Shown here piece after piece: positions 22,510 through 32,820 of a stretch of DNA of 33,069 nucleotides. This DNA is from Nautiliaceae bacterium (GTDB taxonomy: Bacteria > Campylobacterota > Campylobacteria > Campylobacterales > Nautiliaceae): positions 1 to 33,069 of the forward strand of contig JAMOTL010000063.1 of assembly GCA_027062285.1 (NCBI GenBank). The letters run 5' to 3'. Made by a program: the position numbers and the translations under genes. Numbering within the stretch: the stretch's first letter is position 1; every line of letters begins with the position of its first letter. The notes under the pieces were generated by a model. That model made no database searches and was not told where the DNA came from. It was given only the letters and a program-made list of their open reading frames with translations.

Positions 22510-23094
22510 TTAAATTTTCGGTAATTGCCAATTTCGTATATGAGCTATAATTCTTAGAAACACACCTACAATAAATATTGTTAGAATATAAAAAAAATCA
22601 TTTGGTAAGAAATATACTAATAAAGCCACTAAAATTGCTATACTCCCGTAAAATTTTTCTTTTAGAATAAAAGGAATATGATTTATAAGCATATCTCTAA
22701 ACATCCCTCCTCCAACGGCTGTAATAAGAGCCAAAGTAGCCACTCCGAAAATATTAAACCCCTTCATCTCTCCTACAATTGCCCCTGATATGGCAAAACT
22801 AACGAGCCCTATGGAATCACTGAGTAAAAAGAGTCTATTTTTTTCAAAATCAAATCTGTGAAATTTAAAATAAATCCCTATCAACACTACCAAAAGCACC
22901 AAAATTCCCGGTAATATATCGGTAAAAGCATAAATCTCTCTATCAGCAATAACATCCCTTATAATACCCCCACCAAGAGCCGTCAAAAACGCACTTATAA
23001 TAATCCCAAGTAAATCAAGGCCGTTTTTCACGCCTATAATAAAGCCGCTTATAGCAAACGCCACTATTCCTATAATATCGGTAATTTCTAACAT
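22510..23094 (-). CDS. TRIC-like/UPF0126 membrane protein, 194 aa
   Basis: About six to seven membrane helices in two related halves, each carrying a glycine triplet before a charged R-D/R-D-M motif: [20 protein letters not shown] and [20 protein letters not shown]. This is the UPF0126/YadS family, related to eukaryotic TRIC cation channels, and some bacterial relatives are tied to glycine uptake. Substrate is not clear from sequence. It starts inside the end of ruvC, with a 7-base overlap, and is translated downstream of it. Confidence 0.85.
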
Positions 23095-23552
23095 TTTATC
23101 CTCTGTGAGTGAGTAATGGCCACCGCTATGGCATCGGTAATATCAAGAGGTTTTATATCACCTTTTAAACCCAAAATTCTTTTAACCATAAAAGCAACCT
23201 GCTCTTTTTTTGCCTTTCCGTTTCCGGTAACTGCTCTTTTTACCTGAAGAGGCGTATATTCGGCAAAATTTCCGTGTACCTGTAAAATCCTAAGAGACAA
23301 TGCTCCTCTAAATTGAGCTAGTTTTAAAACTGTTTTTGGATTATAAGCATAAAAAATATCTTCAATCGCCACTTCATCAATCGGATTTTTTAAAATAATA
23401 TCCAGTCCCTCTATCAACTGAGAAAGCTGATATTGTAACTCTTTTTCAGTGATTTTTATAAAACCGGCATCCAATAACTGTAATTTTGGCGTGGTTTCTA
23501 TAATAGCATATCCGCATCTGATAGTTCCGGGATCTATTCCAAGTATTTTCAT
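23088..23552 (-). CDS. ruvC: Holliday junction resolvase RuvC
   Basis: An endonuclease that cuts Holliday junctions in the RuvABC pathway. Catalytic acids: D7 (ILGIDPGT), E64 ([14 protein letters not shown]), D137 and D140 ([13 protein letters not shown]). The DNA-binding loop [15 protein letters not shown] and [17 protein letters not shown] are family typical. Length 154 is normal. It is divergent from dnaA, with DnaA-box-like sequences in the 152-base spacer. Confidence 0.96.
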
Positions 23553-23691
23553 TCACACTTCTTTCATGTTTTATTCACATTTAATTCACTATGTGAATAA
23601 CTTTATTAGACATTTAATTTCCATTATGTTAAAATTAAATTCACATAACTTTTCACAATATATTCACAATGTGAAAAAAATTTTATTCACA
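23549..23691. other. oriC-like DnaA-box cluster upstream of dnaA
   Basis: The ruvC-dnaA spacer holds three exact TTATTCACA boxes (23571-23579 plus, 23592-23600 minus, 23683-23691 plus). Near matches are TCATTCACA (23549-23557), ATATTCACA (23660-23668), the complement TTTTTCACA (23678-23670) and CTTTTCACA (23649-23657). Their density in about 140 AT-rich bases, directly upstream of dnaA, is typical of a Campylobacterota origin half and of dnaA autoregulation. The exact affinity of each box is unknown. Confidence 0.8.
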
Positions 23692-23704
23692 AAGGAGCTG
23701 TTTT

Positions 23705-25012
23705 TTGTTATTCGATAAAATAAAACAAGAACTAAAACGTGAAAATCAAGTGAATTATAATAAATTTATAAAAAATTTGGAATTCGATGAAGAAAACAGT
23801 GACAGTGCGAGATTAATAATTAAAGCTCCCAATATTTTTATAGCCAATTACGTAAAAAGAAAATATTCTAAAAAAATTGCCGAACTATATCAAAAAGAAA
23901 CAGGAATAGAAGCGGCAGTGGAAATAATTACAAAAGAGATCAAACCAAAAAAATATACCAGTGAAGAAATTCTAACAACCTCCACTCCTTCGGTACTCAT
24001 ACCGGAATATACCTTTGAAAGTTTTATTGTGGGACCATCTAATCAGTTCGCTTACAGTGCAGCTAAAAGCGTAGCTGAAAATCCCGGTAAAAGTTATAAT
24101 CCTCTTTTTATTTACGGAGGGGTCGGTTTAGGTAAAACACACCTCATCCAAGCCATAGGAAACTACCTAAAAAACAAACTAAAAGTAATTTACGTAACAA
24201 GCGAACAATTTATGAACGAATTTAGAGAACATGTAAGAAACCAAACAATGGACAGATTCCACGAAAAATATAGAAACTGCGACGTTTTATTGATTGACGA
24301 CGTTCAATTTTTCGCAGGAAAAGAACAAACCCAAGAAGAATTTTTCCACACTTTTAACGAACTTTACAACCAAAAAAAACAGATATGTCTTACAGCCGAC
24401 AGACCTCCGAAAAAACTTCAAGATCTGGTAGACAGATTAAGAAGCCGCTTTGAAGCCGGTCTCATAGCCGATATCCAACCTCCGGAACTTGAAACAAAAA
24501 TAGAAATCATCAAGAAAAAATGCGAACTTAACGGTATTTATCTCCCGGATGACGTAATTGAATTTATTGCTACAAAACTTGATGATAATATAAGAGAAAT
24601 AGAAGGTATGATAGTAAAATTAAACGCCATGGCAAAACTTTTGGGAATTACGGATATTACTCTTGATTTTGCAAAACAGGCCCTGAAAGAACATATAAAA
24701 GATAAAAAAGAAAATATCACTCTTCAGGATATTATCGAACTTATCGCTAAAGAATTTAACATAAAACCAAGCGAAATAACCTCAAAAAGCAGAAACCAAA
24801 ATATCGTAGCAGCGAGAAGAACTGCTATTTACTTGGCCCGTGAGTTTACAAAGGAATCAACTCCGACAATTGCAAAATATTTCGGACTTAAAGACCACAG
24901 CGCAGTAAGCCACGCAATCAAAAGTTTTAATAAAAAACTAAAAGAAGATAATGATTTTAGAATTAAAATCGAAGAGCTGAAAAATAAAATTCAACTAAGA
25001 AAAGGTGAATAG
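23705..25012 (+). CDS. dnaA: Chromosomal replication initiator DnaA
   Basis: AAA+ initiator of replication. Start is TTG at 23705, with AGGAG at 23693-23697. Domain I lies at about 1-80. The AAA+ core begins at YTFESFIVGPSNQFAYSAA (102-120), with Walker A GGVGLGKT (138-145) and Walker B VLLIDDVQFF (194-203). The C-terminal HTH with the box-binding signature FGLKDHSAVSHAI binds DnaA boxes. Length 435 matches the short DnaA of Campylobacterota, with a minimal domain II. DnaA-box-like clusters lie on both sides. Confidence 0.97.
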   Translation: MLFDKIKQELKRENQVNYNKFIKNLEFDEENSDSARLIIKAPNIFIANYVKRKYSKKIAELYQKETGIEAAVEIITKEIKPKKYTSEEILTTSTPSVLIPEYTFESFIVGPSNQFAYSAAKSVAENPGKSYNPLFIYGGVGLGKTHLIQAIGNYLKNKLKVIYVTSEQFMNEFREHVRNQTMDRFHEKYRNCDVLLIDDVQFFAGKEQTQEEFFHTFNELYNQKKQICLTADRPPKKLQDLVDRLRSRFEAGLIADIQPPELETKIEIIKKKCELNGIYLPDDVIEFIATKLDDNIREIEGMIVKLNAMAKLLGITDITLDFAKQALKEHIKDKKENITLQDIIELIAKEFNIKPSEITSKSRNQNIVAARRTAIYLAREFTKESTPTIAKYFGLKDHSAVSHAIKSFNKKLKEDNDFRIKIEELKNKIQLRKGE

Positions 25013-25110
25013 CGTGAATAAAAAAGTTATTCACTTTCACTTACAAAATGTGAAGATTACGGGGATTTTCAGCAAAATTCAACAATTCACTATAATCTAC
25101 TACTACTACT
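25013..25110. other. oriC-like region between dnaA and dnaN: boxes plus (CTA)4 DnaA-trio-like run
   Basis: Box-like sites: complement TTATTCACG (25021-25013), TTATTCACT (25027-25035), complement ATCTTCACA (25057-25049) and CAATTCACT (25083-25091). Then CTACTACTACTACT at 25097-25110 repeats CTA four times and a half. This resembles the DnaA-trio (repeated 3'-GAT on the other strand) that marks the single-strand entry point for DnaA filaments in Bacillus and other origins. Opening would happen into the AT-rich sequence that follows, up to dnaN. TATAAT at 25091-25096 may also be the dnaN promoter -10. Confidence 0.7.
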
Positions 25111-25137
25111 GTAAGAATTTAAATAAAGGAGAAAGTT

Positions 25138-26190
25138 ATGCACATTAAAATTCAAAAACCTGTTCTTGAGAGTATAATAAACCAGGCACTTCCTTTTACG
25201 GAAAAAAAAGACAACACTCAAATTACTTCTCATATACTGCTACAAGCAGATGAAAACCTAACAATCAAAGCTACAGATAAGGAAATAGGAATAAAAATAA
25301 CAACAGATACTGAAATTTTAGAAAAAGGTATAGTTACTATAAACGGAAAAAGACTGTCTGATATTATTAAAGCCCTACAAAACAAAGAAATAGAAATAAA
25401 AAGCGAAGGTGATACGATTATTATTACACAAGATACATCAATTTATAAACTTACAAGCTTTAATGCAAATGAATTTCCGGAATTTCCAAATCCAAACGAC
25501 TTGGAAAAACTAAATATTCAAAATAACGAATTTTTTGACGCAATTAAAAAAATATTCCCAGTAATCGATACAAATAACCCTAAATACGAATTAAACGGAG
25601 CTCTCTTTGATATAAAAGAAAAAACAAACTTTGTATCAACTGACACAAGAAGACTTGCTGTTTACTACAGTGACGCTACCGGAAAAGAAAACCAAATCAT
25701 CGTTCCAAAAAGAGCAATAAGTGAAATTAAAAGAATATTTAAAGACGATATGGAAATTTTCTATGATGAGGTTTATTTAATTTTAAAAGATGAAAATACA
25801 ATGTTTTTCACAAAATTAATAAACGGAAAATTTCCGGCATATGAAAAAATAATTCCTCAAAGCTTCAATTACGAACTTAAAATCCCAAGAGGAGAGTTTT
25901 TATCACATTTAAAACAGGTAAGCATTATTTCAAACGAAGTAAGAATATCAATTAAAAAAGACAAAATAGAATTCGAAAGCATAAGTGACGAAACTATGCA
26001 AGCAAAAACAAGTTTTGAATACAACAGTAATATAGATGATTTTACTTTTGCGGTAAATAGCAGATATTTAATGGATTTTCTAAATATAATAAATTCAGAT
26101 GAATTTGAACTTTGTCTAAACGAACCGAATATACCGTTTATGTTAAGAGACGGCAAATTCATCACAATAGTAATGCCTCTTAATATTTGA
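25138..26190 (+). CDS. dnaN: DNA polymerase III beta sliding clamp
   Basis: The processivity clamp for the replicative polymerase. The three-repeat fold is recognised by MHIKIQKPVLESIINQALPFTEKK, HILLQADENLTIKATDKEIGI, the NLEKL to STDTRRLAVYY middle domain and a C-terminal NIPFMLRDGKFITIVMPLNI, with the final M-P-L hallmark. Length 350 is in range. It follows dnaA by 125 bases that contain origin elements, and has an AAAGGAGA site and an ATG at 25138. gyrB follows with its own -10 over the dnaN stop. Confidence 0.95.
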   Translation: MHIKIQKPVLESIINQALPFTEKKDNTQITSHILLQADENLTIKATDKEIGIKITTDTEILEKGIVTINGKRLSDIIKALQNKEIEIKSEGDTIIITQDTSIYKLTSFNANEFPEFPNPNDLEKLNIQNNEFFDAIKKIFPVIDTNNPKYELNGALFDIKEKTNFVSTDTRRLAVYYSDATGKENQIIVPKRAISEIKRIFKDDMEIFYDEVYLILKDENTMFFTKLINGKFPAYEKIIPQSFNYELKIPRGEFLSHLKQVSIISNEVRISIKKDKIEFESISDETMQAKTSFEYNSNIDDFTFAVNSRYLMDFLNIINSDEFELCLNEPNIPFMLRDGKFITIVMPLNI

Positions 26191-26224: not shown

Positions 26225-28501
<2,277 letters not shown>

Positions 28502-29013: not shown

Positions 29014-32000
29014 ATGAAAAAGGGAGTAAAGTATTCATTATTTAGTTTAGCGGCATGTTTAATTTTAGTAGGTTGTGGAGGAGGAAGCAGTAGTAATAGT
29101 AGTTCTTCTACTTCCAGTACAACAACTAATAAAACATCAACATTAAATGGTTCAGCTATAGATGGTCCTATTGCTTATGCTAAAGTTTGTTTAGATTTAA
29201 ATTTTAATGAAAAGTGTGATGATAATGAACCTTTTAGTAATACAGATGCTAATGGAAATTTCAGCTTTTCTTATAATCCAGCAGATGAAAATGCAACAAT
29301 TGCTCCAGTATTAGTAGAGCCTACCGATAATTCAATAGATATTTATACCAAAGAAAGTTTTGTTAATAAACTATCCACTCCAAGGACAGGAGAAAATACT
29401 GTTTATGTATCTCCTATATCTACTATTGCTACCAAAAAAGTTTATGTAAAGACAAAAACAAATAAAATTACTGAAACTGAGATAAAAGAAATTAAAGAAA
29501 AAGTATCTAAAGCTTTAAATTTAGAAGAGGATATAACAAATATAAATCCAATTAAAGATAAAAAAAACTTAGCAGTTTCAGTATTTTTGTCTAAATTAGC
29601 AGAAGAAAATCCTGATGTTATTGAAGTTGTTTCAGATAAAATAATTAATGAAAATAAATCAATAGAAGAAGCTATTCCTAAAGAACATCAAACTGTTTTT
29701 AATAATATTATAACAAGTGTTGAGAATAATGAACTAAATGACCCTGTTATACTACAGCAAGCTGTAGAAGTGTCAATTGACACTAATGAAAACATTGTAG
29801 AGAAAATTAATGATACTCAAACTGAAGTAGATTTAGCTAAAGTACTTATAGGAGGGTATTTAAAGGGTATATTTAATGATTTTAAAACATATGATTTAGC
29901 TGGGTTAAATGATATAAAAGTTAATTTAGATTTGAATCCAGAAGATATTGCTGAATCAATATATAATACTTATAGTATTAAAAATATTTCTTCATTAAAT
30001 GAAGCAGTTAATGAAAAAGAAATAAATGTAAAAATCAATGAAAGTGAAATTAAGATTAATCAAATAATCAATACTTACGAAAAATTTAAAAAAATAAAAA
30101 AAGTTTTTGATGAGTTAAATATTTTACATGCTGAAAATATAGGAGATATAAATAAAAAATATTATTTTGATGTGGTAAAAGGTAAACAACTATTCTTACC
30201 TCATAAAGATTATCAAGCATTTATGTTTAAAGAAAACAATATTACTCAAAGTATATATATGAGTGATGAAAATTATGTGGCAATAACAAATAATGAAATA
30301 TTTAATAAAGTATTTGTAATAGAGGATAATAATATTAATGCTTATTTCCCAATTTTAATATCTGATTCTAATAATTTGGATGATATAAAATTAGTGTTGA
30401 GTTATAAAGTTATTGATAATAATAGTATAAAAGATAGATATTTAATTGATGGAAAAATTTATGAAATTGATAGTAATAAAATAAAAGATGGTATTTTGGA
30501 GTTAGATTCGGATAATTATTTTATAGCAACAAAAATTACAGATGATTATTCCATTTTAAATGGTTATATAGTGAAGTTGGAAAATGGAAAAGTTATATCA
30601 GTTAAAACAGCTACTATGGTGTATAGTATTTCTGAAGTTGAAAAATTTTTAGATTCATTACCTTTTAAGCCGATCCCAATTACTTTAAGTGATATAGCTG
30701 GTAAAAAAATTATTTTGGATAATATATTTACTGCTTATTTTACTTCAAATAAAAAAGTGTTTTTTCATAACGAAGATGATTATGACATCATTAATAATGT
30801 TTTAGTAATTTATAATGCTAGTACTAATATAAATGTAATGGTAGCGTTTAAATCTTTAAATGATTCTAATGGAGAAATCAGTTTTTATGATTTTAAGGAT
30901 GAAAAATTATTTGAAAATATGGAGGTAAGAGTAGAATCATTTGATGAAGCAACTTTTAATCCTTATCCTACCTATGTAATAAATAATTCTCAAGTTATGC
31001 TAAAAAATGATGATGATAAACTTAATTTAAATCAAAATGATGAATTACAATTTAATATTGTTGATGATAATGGTACTGGAATACAATGTACTACTAATTT
31101 TAATAGTTTAGAAGAATTTAAAAACGCTTTTGATGGAAATGAACTTATATTAGATGCTGCTGAAAATGAAATAAACTGTTTATATTTGGTAGGGTATAAT
31201 GTTTCTTTAACTGATAAACAAACAGAGATAATTAAGTTTATTGATAATAATGATGGAAGTTATCAAATCCATTTGATAACGGGTTATTTTAGTGGAACAT
31301 ATGAAGAAAATAATGAAACAAAAGAATTTAATATAACTGCAATTGATGATAATATTGTATTTTTTGAAGATGAAAATTTCGAGAATGAATCAGTTGAAAA
31401 TGAAGAAAATCAAACAAATACTAACTCTAGTATAGAAGTGGAACCTTTAACAAATTTATGGGGATATGATTGGGTTAAAATTTTAGCAATGTATCCAGGA
31501 GATGAAAGGTTTAAAGACAATGATGTTGTGATTTACGATGAAAATGAATATATAGTTCTAAGAGCTTATAAAAAAGACAAAATTGATTCAATGGCTGAAA
31601 TAGCAACTAATTTAAATTATGCATCTGGTTTTAATATTAAAGTTAATTTAGAAAATGAAAGTAGTAATTCGAACTTTGGAGCTTTAGGAATTGCTAAAGG
31701 CTATATTAAAACGAATGGTAATGTTGGAAATCTTAAACGTGATGAAAATCTAACTTTTATAGCGGGAATTAAAGTTTATGAAAATTCTATTTCAAGTTGG
31801 GTCTATTTAAATGATAGTGAAGGTAATGAGTATTATCAAACAATAAAAACACAAGACTACTCTGAAGACTTAAATAATTTAAATAGTGATGGTAATGACG
31901 TGATGATTGAGATTAAAGAAGAAAATGGTTCAATTCATTATGTCGTAACAAACGATAATAGTGGAGATGTGATTTTTGATTCTATTGTTAATTTAAAAGA

Positions 32001-32820
32001 TTTAAATATTACTAATTTTGAAGGTTTTAATATAGCAGCTATAAGAAGCCGTATAAAACCTGATAGTGATGGAAATAAGAGTGAAAATATTATTAATGAG
32101 TTTGAAGCTTTTTATCAAATAGATTCAGTAGATGAATTTTTAGAAAAAATAGATTTCGAACCTATGGAGCTAAGTGAATCAGATTTAGTAAATAAAGCGT
32201 TGTATTTGGATATTAAGGAGGAAGGGAATTGTTATATAAAATTTTTAGATAACGGTTCTTATGAATATTATGAAGAAGATAAAGAACCAGAAAGTGGAAC
32301 ATGGAGAGTTGAAAAAAATGTTTTGGTATTAGATGATGTAACATTTGCTGCAATTAGACGTAAAGAAGGTTCTATTTTATATACGACAATATCTGAAAAA
32401 GGAGAGTTATTTAATGAAACAGATGCTTTATTAAAAGGTGATAAAGTTAACAATACAGATGATATCTTAAATATTATTGACAATAAACCGAAAGAAATTG
32501 CAGAAAAAGATTTAAAAGGCACCGTATGGAAACTTTCAGATACTGATAAACTTTATTTGAACGATGATTACTCCGTAAAAGTGGAGTGGGTAGAGGATGG
32601 TAAAACCGTTTCTGCTACAGGAAAGTGGAGTATGGACAATAATATAATTGTAATTGATTTAGATAAGAATGATTTTGATGTAGATAAATCATATATAATT
32701 CCTCTTTATACTGACGAAGACTCTAATGGATTGTTTTTGATTGGCTTATTAAGTATTGATACAGATACAGACGAGAATATTAATATGGTAATGAAGGATG
32801 AGTGGAAAATAGATAATTAA
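29014..32820 (+). CDS. Large modular Asn/Asp-rich surface lipoprotein, 1268 aa
   Basis: Lipobox LILVGC with Cys at 21, then a Gly/Ser/Thr linker (about 22-45). An SdrB/transthyretin-like beta module follows (about 46-90), where DLNFNEKCDDNEP looks like a calcium-binding loop. Then comes a long helical/coiled section (about 150-360), several beta modules, and a module near 815-1030 with a lectin-like (concanavalin-type) flavour. At about 538, 1037 and 1149 a repeat unit begins with an (E/D)FL..x.P.....S/D pattern, followed by W/Y-rich lipocalin-like strands. No known function. It is very acidic and its codons are more AT-rich than those of neighbours, suggesting fast evolution or transfer. It is likely outer-membrane anchored and surface exposed. 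Confidence 0.75.
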   Translation: MKKGVKYSLFSLAACLILVGCGGGSSSNSSSSTSSTTTNKTSTLNGSAIDGPIAYAKVCLDLNFNEKCDDNEPFSNTDANGNFSFSYNPADENATIAPVLVEPTDNSIDIYTKESFVNKLSTPRTGENTVYVSPISTIATKKVYVKTKTNKITETEIKEIKEKVSKALNLEEDITNINPIKDKKNLAVSVFLSKLAEENPDVIEVVSDKIINENKSIEEAIPKEHQTVFNNIITSVENNELNDPVILQQAVEVSIDTNENIVEKINDTQTEVDLAKVLIGGYLKGIFNDFKTYDLAGLNDIKVNLDLNPEDIAESIYNTYSIKNISSLNEAVNEKEINVKINESEIKINQIINTYEKFKKIKKVFDELNILHAENIGDINKKYYFDVVKGKQLFLPHKDYQAFMFKENNITQSIYMSDENYVAITNNEIFNKVFVIEDNNINAYFPILISDSNNLDDIKLVLSYKVIDNNSIKDRYLIDGKIYEIDSNKIKDGILELDSDNYFIATKITDDYSILNGYIVKLENGKVISVKTATMVYSISEVEKFLDSLPFKPIPITLSDIAGKKIILDNIFTAYFTSNKKVFFHNEDDYDIINNVLVIYNASTNINVMVAFKSLNDSNGEISFYDFKDEKLFENMEVRVESFDEATFNPYPTYVINNSQVMLKNDDDKLNLNQNDELQFNIVDDNGTGIQCTTNFNSLEEFKNAFDGNELILDAAENEINCLYLVGYNVSLTDKQTEIIKFIDNNDGSYQIHLITGYFSGTYEENNETKEFNITAIDDNIVFFEDENFENESVENEENQTNTNSSIEVEPLTNLWGYDWVKILAMYPGDERFKDNDVVIYDENEYIVLRAYKKDKIDSMAEIATNLNYASGFNIKVNLENESSNSNFGALGIAKGYIKTNGNVGNLKRDENLTFIAGIKVYENSISSWVYLNDSEGNEYYQTIKTQDYSEDLNNLNSDGNDVMIEIKEENGSIHYVVTNDNSGDVIFDSIVNLKDLNITNFEGFNIAAIRSRIKPDSDGNKSENIINEFEAFYQIDSVDEFLEKIDFEPMELSESDLVNKALYLDIKEEGNCYIKFLDNGSYEYYEEDKEPESGTWRVEKNVLVLDDVTFAAIRRKEGSILYTTISEKGELFNETDALLKGDKVNNTDDILNIIDNKPKEIAEKDLKGTVWKLSDTDKLYLNDDYSVKVEWVEDGKTVSATGKWSMDNNIIVIDLDKNDFDVDKSYIIPLYTDEDSNGLFLIGLLSIDTDTDENINMVMKDEWKIDN

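Follow-up and report, generated by a model that had tools for sequence, protein, structure and literature searches.

A predicted DNA-unwinding module with five DnaA-trios between dnaA and dnaN in a Nautiliaceae bacterium

We analyzed the gap between dnaA and dnaN in a Nautiliaceae bacterium and predict, with a probability of about 0.94, that positions 25075-25137 constitute a DNA-unwinding module (a basal unwinding system), which would form the oriC2 half of a bipartite origin organized as ruvC-oriC1-dnaA-oriC2-dnaN. A preliminary description of this DNA had proposed an unwinding site in the same gap and, as a prediction, that proposal finds support in the gene context, in conservation, orientation and spacing, and also in the GC skew of a relative. 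The material obtained here comprises the sequence, the position of the elements, their conserved order, spacing and register, and a skew minimum at dnaA in a congeneric genome. The window, i.e. the whole 33,069-nucleotide stretch that was analyzed, is one of the 111 contigs (C63) that make up a draft genome of 1.55 Mb. The gene order at the locus is ruvC-dnaA-dnaN-gyrB, with ruvC (23088-23552) on the minus strand, dnaA (23705-25012, 435 aa, TTG start) and dnaN (25138-26190, 350 aa) on the plus strand, and gyrB at 26225-28501. Further along, 29014-32820 encodes a lipoprotein-like protein of 1268 aa without a Pfam match.

Boxes, spacer and trios in the dnaA-dnaN gap

The first DnaA box core at this end of dnaA lies within its last codons (25005-25009, minus strand), and a GTGAA is found within the last 14 nt of dnaA in all 20 family genomes, the window's included. 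This is followed in the gap by the boxes TTATTCACG (25013-25021, minus) and TTATTCACT (25027-25035, plus), which are the two box-like sites named in the preliminary description, by ACTTTCACT (25033-25041, plus), which overlaps TTATTCACT, and by the box-like ATCTTCACA (25049-25057, minus), which is not fixed among relatives. Near the middle of the gap two G's (25061-25062) are invariant in 20/20 gaps, and in genera g3 and g4 this pair follows a TATAAT. Nearer to dnaN two co-oriented boxes on the plus strand are fused to each other, namely the distal AAATTCAAC (25075-25083), with the weak core TTCAA, and the proximal CAATTCACT (25083-25091); they overlap by 1 bp, with base 25083 common to both. 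A 5-bp AT spacer, ATAAT (25092-25096, plus), which together with base 25091 reads TATAAT, separates the pair from five in-frame DnaA-trios, CTA CTA CTA CTA CTG (25097-25111, plus), each CTA corresponding to 3'-GAT-5' on the strand that DnaA would be expected to bind. The trios are succeeded by a largely conserved AT-rich tail, TAAGAATTTAAAT (25112-25124, plus), and by the dnaN ribosome-binding site AAAGGAG (25125-25131, plus). The coordinates given earlier for the (CTA)4 run (25097-25108), the TATAAT (25091-25096) and CAATTCACT are all correct; the element is bigger than had been described, as the fifth in-register trio CTG (25109-25111) and the second box AAATTCAAC had been missed.

Exact TTCAC/GTGAA cores number five in the 125 bp of the gap (Poisson 3e-6 relative to the rest of the window). 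A basal unwinding system calls for three or more trios whose middle base on the bound strand is A, and five such units are present; likewise, the spacer of 5 bp after CAATTCACT falls within the 0-16 bp that the relevant part of PMC8287927 gives for the distance of a box from the first trio, and the tandem co-oriented boxes expected upstream of the trios are present as the fused pair. A GC-rich spacer between box and trios is absent here, its place being taken by ATAAT, and the family spacers have 23% GC; such a spacer is a frequent feature of these systems, neither universal nor defining. The segment 25097-25137 has a G+C of 11/41, and among 50-bp segments 25097-25146 lies at the 80th and 25075-25124 at the 94th percentile of instability. 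By these values the stretch does not clearly stand out as unstable, and thermodynamic instability is weak as proof of an opening site.

The (CTA)4 run occurs once in the window and in none of 100 shuffles. Across the 1.55 Mb genome it also has a single match, as has the box-plus-trio pattern, and for each of the two the backwards pattern has two. Rarity of the repeat was consequently rejected as evidence: the motif alone proves nothing, because its backwards readings in the genome are no rarer. It is place and conservation, not motif rarity, that exceed chance.

Conservation in the Nautiliaceae and other Campylobacterota

The family set consisted of 21 genomes including that of the window, 20 of which were used (G020, with dnaN in fragments, was left out). 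In all 20 gaps, the window's included, fused boxes at an 8-bp pitch and in the same orientation are followed by trios. The box-plus-three-trio pattern matches 20/20 gaps and 0/20 of their reverse complements, and shuffled gaps match it in a mean of 0.06 of 20 (maximum 1, 200 rounds). From the start of the nearer box core to the trios there are 11 nt in 14 genomes and 10 nt in six, corresponding to spacers of 4-5 bp; the conservation of the repeats and of their spacing in relatives, to which the preliminary description had looked for a check, is borne out with trios at 10-11 nt in 20/20 gaps. Five in-frame YTR units are seen in 18 gaps, and in the other two the fourth unit is CCA. When the gaps were aligned without anchoring on the trios, all five first-base columns were found to vary, and then between C and T alone, as compared with two of the ten second- and third-base columns, each in two genomes (hypergeometric 0.007). 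Earlier column counts had been anchored on three YTA units and were circular for units 1-3; the unanchored alignment agrees with them. Exchange of C and T at the first base is what a need for the other strand to read 3'-(G/A)AT-5' would predict.

Within the fused pair the box with the exact core switches sides, being the nearer one in five of the 20 family genomes, the farther one in 13 and both in two. One locus, L048 (genome G003), is listed under the same genus as the window; its DnaA is only 62% identical to that of the window, its gap is longer (147 bp), and DnaA proteins from other genera of the family are 82-90% identical to that of the window.

Beyond the family, we compared 42 gaps from other Campylobacterota, made up of 23 loci and 19 of 20 stretches (L093, a stretch with no dnaA, was dropped). 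Of the 150 genomes in the source list, seven belong to the family of the window and 43 of the others were covered; the remaining 100 and the group f2g17 lie outside the comparison. A strict pattern of a box with three trios matches 15/42 gaps and fails to match 27/42, as against no reverse complements and a mean of 0.12 shuffled gaps (at most 2). A box with two trios matches 24/42, as against five reverse complements and a mean of 2.33 shuffled gaps (at most 6). An uninterrupted run of five trios follows a box in 2/42 of these gaps, in contrast to the five units in 18/20 family gaps. A more forgiving search, run with no control, finds two TTCAC-like cores together with CTA-like units in 41/42 and no site in one. 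The distance from the trios to dnaN ranges in other families from about 19 to 82 nt, with the parts in the same order.

The cluster before dnaA and the GC skew

The gap between ruvC and dnaA (23553-23704) contains an oriC1-like cluster of eight exact DnaA box cores, six TTCAC and two GTGAA, in 152 bp (Poisson 4e-10). The corresponding gaps of 12 relatives have 6-10 cores each, L012, in which there is no such gap, having been left out; some of these 12 lie on contigs that also supplied the 20 family gaps, and the two sets are not independent. A bipartite Campylobacterota oriC is recognized by the order ruvC-dnaA-dnaN together with TTCAC cores on both sides of dnaA, and both features are found at this locus, the second box cluster lying before dnaA as in published bipartite origins of the phylum.

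The cluster consists of two similar halves about 78 bp apart (23574-23690), which flank a promoter-like site for dnaA at 23607-23635 on the plus strand (TAGACA-17-TAAAAT, with a TG before the -10), the scan that gave this site finding no more sites than shuffles do (8 versus 7.9). With a looser pattern, a similar element was found before dnaA in all 12 relatives' loci searched; that pattern misses the window itself, its minimum gap being one base too long for the site there, and the site in the window comes from the separate scan. Each half of the cluster has a dyad, TTCAC-N3-GTGAA, at 23585-23597 and 23663-23675. The first is exact in 12 of 13 gaps (window included), and the second is exact in four, with N4 in eight and N5 in one. 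The placement of these dyads on either side of the promoter-like site suggests that DnaA may regulate its own expression.

As the window's own genome is spread over 111 contigs, GC skew was computed from G001, a one-contig genome of the same genus, and the switch of skew at the replication start is seen by this proxy only. In contiguous 10-kb bins over 104-264 kb, the cumulative minimum of G001 is at 204,294, adjoining dnaA (203,067-204,371), next to which dnaN lies on the minus strand (201,889-202,938). The signal at this resolution is noisy, and single bins at 134 and at 174 kb are positive. Coarser sampling (20 samples of 20 kb) places the change from negative to positive between 104 and 169 kb, which falls 35-100 kb short of dnaA, and the switch back between 947 and 1,012 kb. 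Within the window the skew minimum is at 25706. A GC-skew minimum mapping elsewhere had been named as a finding that would speak against an unwinding site in this gap; in relatives the proposal passes this test, the minimum of G001 being at dnaA, and for Nautilia profundicola, a member of the same family, a genome paper of 2009 likewise used GC skew to locate the origin near dnaA (PMC2628731).

Alternative readings and comparison with known origins

One alternative is that the trinucleotide run is a chance repeat lying beside ordinary DnaA boxes, for which it can be said that in the window's genome (CTA)4 is matched in frequency by its backwards control. We hold this to be extremely improbable, since trios are kept at 10-11 nt in 20/20 family gaps with changes mostly at the first base of a unit, and trios also occur in other Campylobacterota families; conservation refutes the chance repeat unless the conserved block serves something else. 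A second alternative is that the conserved block is mainly a leader or translation element of the dnaN mRNA, and both the position of the block, ending 23-33 nt before the dnaN start, and the AAGGAG conserved in 20/20 family gaps could be understood in this way. However, fused DnaA boxes lie directly beside the block at a constant spacing, and other families keep the same order of parts despite the wide variation in distance to dnaN, which makes a role in the dnaN leader rather than in the origin very improbable as well.

A different proposal, which could add to the origin reading in the window's genome alone, came from the preliminary description: the TATAAT at 25091-25096 would be the -10 element of dnaN, transcription would start within the trios (about 25103), and DnaA binding would thereby control clamp expression. 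The hexamer is exact, a transcript beginning about 35 nt ahead of the dnaN ATG would take in AAAGGAG, a TATAAT is present in only 7.4% of shuffles of the window's gap, and 8/20 family gaps have one somewhere. Against this, none of the 19 relatives has the exact hexamer at this place, one having 5/6 matching bases and six having 4/6, and in five of the 20 family genomes (genera g3 and g4) a TATAAT lies 41 nt upstream of the trios; in three it lies 13-21 nt after the trio start. The promoter scan, which requires a -35-like hexamer, did not list 25091-25096, and its hits overall match the shuffled number, as given above. Moreover, transcription from the promoter-like site before dnaA could run on into dnaN, because the scan listed no plus-strand terminator-like site between the two genes. 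We accordingly rejected the TATAAT as a conserved dnaN promoter of the family, and consider the coupling of DnaA binding to clamp expression unlikely for the window's genome too. Another candidate -10 is a TATAAG-like hexamer where the last trio ends; TATAA is present at that place in 11/20 gaps, which the trio and the AT tail explain equally well.

In the origin reading, the steps of DnaA binding, strand capture and opening are inferred from work on Helicobacter pylori, other Campylobacterota and Bacillus subtilis. DnaA would dock on the fused box pair (25075-25091), and its oligomer would extend over the 5-bp spacer to capture the lower strand at one trio after another, five in all (25097-25111). 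Opening would then spread to the AT-rich tail and the start of dnaN, leading to helicase loading. The other boxes, at 25005-25057 and 23574-23690, probably build and regulate the complex, perhaps with looping over dnaA.

Such modules are known, and according to PMC8235120 most studied Epsilonbacterota have trios beside a box. In H. pylori the trio module is needed for opening, as seen by footprinting and P1 assays, with opening beginning 3 nt after the nearer box (PMC8235120), and mutated modules gave no transformants (PMC8287927). The present module resembles H. pylori oriC2 in that a pair of fused or overlapping boxes stands next to about five perfect 5'-YTR-3' trios and precedes them on the same strand, in the AT-rich DNA after the trios, and in the second cluster across dnaA (PMC8235120, PMC8287927). 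It differs in that a GC-rich tract separates box and trios in H. pylori (PMC8235120, PMC8287927), where ATAAT stands here, and in that H. pylori dnaA is not next to dnaN, whereas here the module lies inside the dnaA-dnaN gap. The preliminary description had placed the H. pylori unwinding element between these two genes; it is indeed downstream of dnaA, but not in a dnaA-dnaN gap, because H. pylori dnaA sits between punB and comH and the order ruvC-dnaA-dnaN is not kept (PMC6052347). The Campylobacter jejuni oriC is similar in its location in the dnaA-dnaN gap, its twin boxes with a 1-bp overlap, its boxes in the 3' end of dnaA, and its distance of about 5 bp, without a GC-rich tract, from the boxes to the opened DNA; its trios are called degenerate and the origin probably monopartite (PMC6052347), in contrast to the five clean trios and the cluster before dnaA described here. 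Arcobacter butzleri, Sulfurimonas denitrificans and Wolinella succinogenes share with the window the order ruvC-dnaA-dnaN, clusters flanking dnaA, the TTCAC core and a trio motif in oriC2 (PMC5043019). Neither Nautiliales nor Nautilia appears in the text of PMC5043019, and the passages on the origin in the N. profundicola genome paper (PMC2628731) do not name boxes, trios or an unwinding site; the supplementary list of trio origins in PMC8235120 possibly has a Nautiliaceae entry. The basal unwinding system of B. subtilis likewise has two co-oriented boxes that load DnaA onto 3'-GAT-5' trios (PMC10721633), but with a GGCC tract between box and trios (PMC8235120).

A further difference from B. 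subtilis lies in DnaA itself. The trio-reading residues N187, I190, I193, R202 and E228 of B. subtilis correspond to N171, R174, V177, H186 and E212 in the window DnaA, and the arginine finger R264 is kept as R248. In B. subtilis, R202 contacts the first trio base and I190 flanks the third (PMC10721633). Across the 20 family genomes the combination of the five residues is NRVHE in 13, NTIHE in three, NIIHE in two, and NKVQE and NSLQE in one each. The R202 position is thus His in 18/20 and Gln in 2/20, and the I190 position is Arg or Lys in 14/20, Thr in three, Ile in two and Ser in one; the latter is variable in other families too (T, I, L, S, M). We regard the altered R174 and H186 as a lead, and not as evidence against DnaA function. 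At the I190 position the residue fits the core-to-trio spacing in 20/20 family genomes (R/K with 11 nt, T/I/S with 10 nt), a link that was dropped as other families combine T and I with a spacing of 11 nt. Over the first three trios of the family the first base is C or T in a ratio of 34:26 and the second and third bases are nearly fixed; of the 42 gaps from other Campylobacterota, 21 have three clean trios, and in these the first-base ratio is 53:10. It might be imagined that Nautiliaceae DnaA reads its five mostly uninterrupted units in a shifted manner, at the second and third trio bases instead of the first and second, but we find this quite improbable: family f7, in which the R202 position is Gln or Lys, keeps CTA CTA CTA in 9/10, and the third base is mostly A in the clean trios of other families as well. 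Relatedness alone could be sufficient for the pattern of bases and residues behind it.

The trio module as such is already known from H. pylori and others, and the window adds one clean example that is ordinary for the phylum; the family-specific details are the five mostly uninterrupted trios, the lack of a GC-rich spacer and the altered trio-reading residues of DnaA. The general picture of how origins open is unchanged by this module. With it, a further family joins those whose trio module is legible straight from sequence at the origin, and the 20 related natural variants with their matching DnaA sequences could help in asking which residue reads which trio base. For the organism itself, the gap between dnaA and dnaN, built like the known origins of its relatives, is very probably where the chromosome of this vent-type bacterium is first opened for copying.
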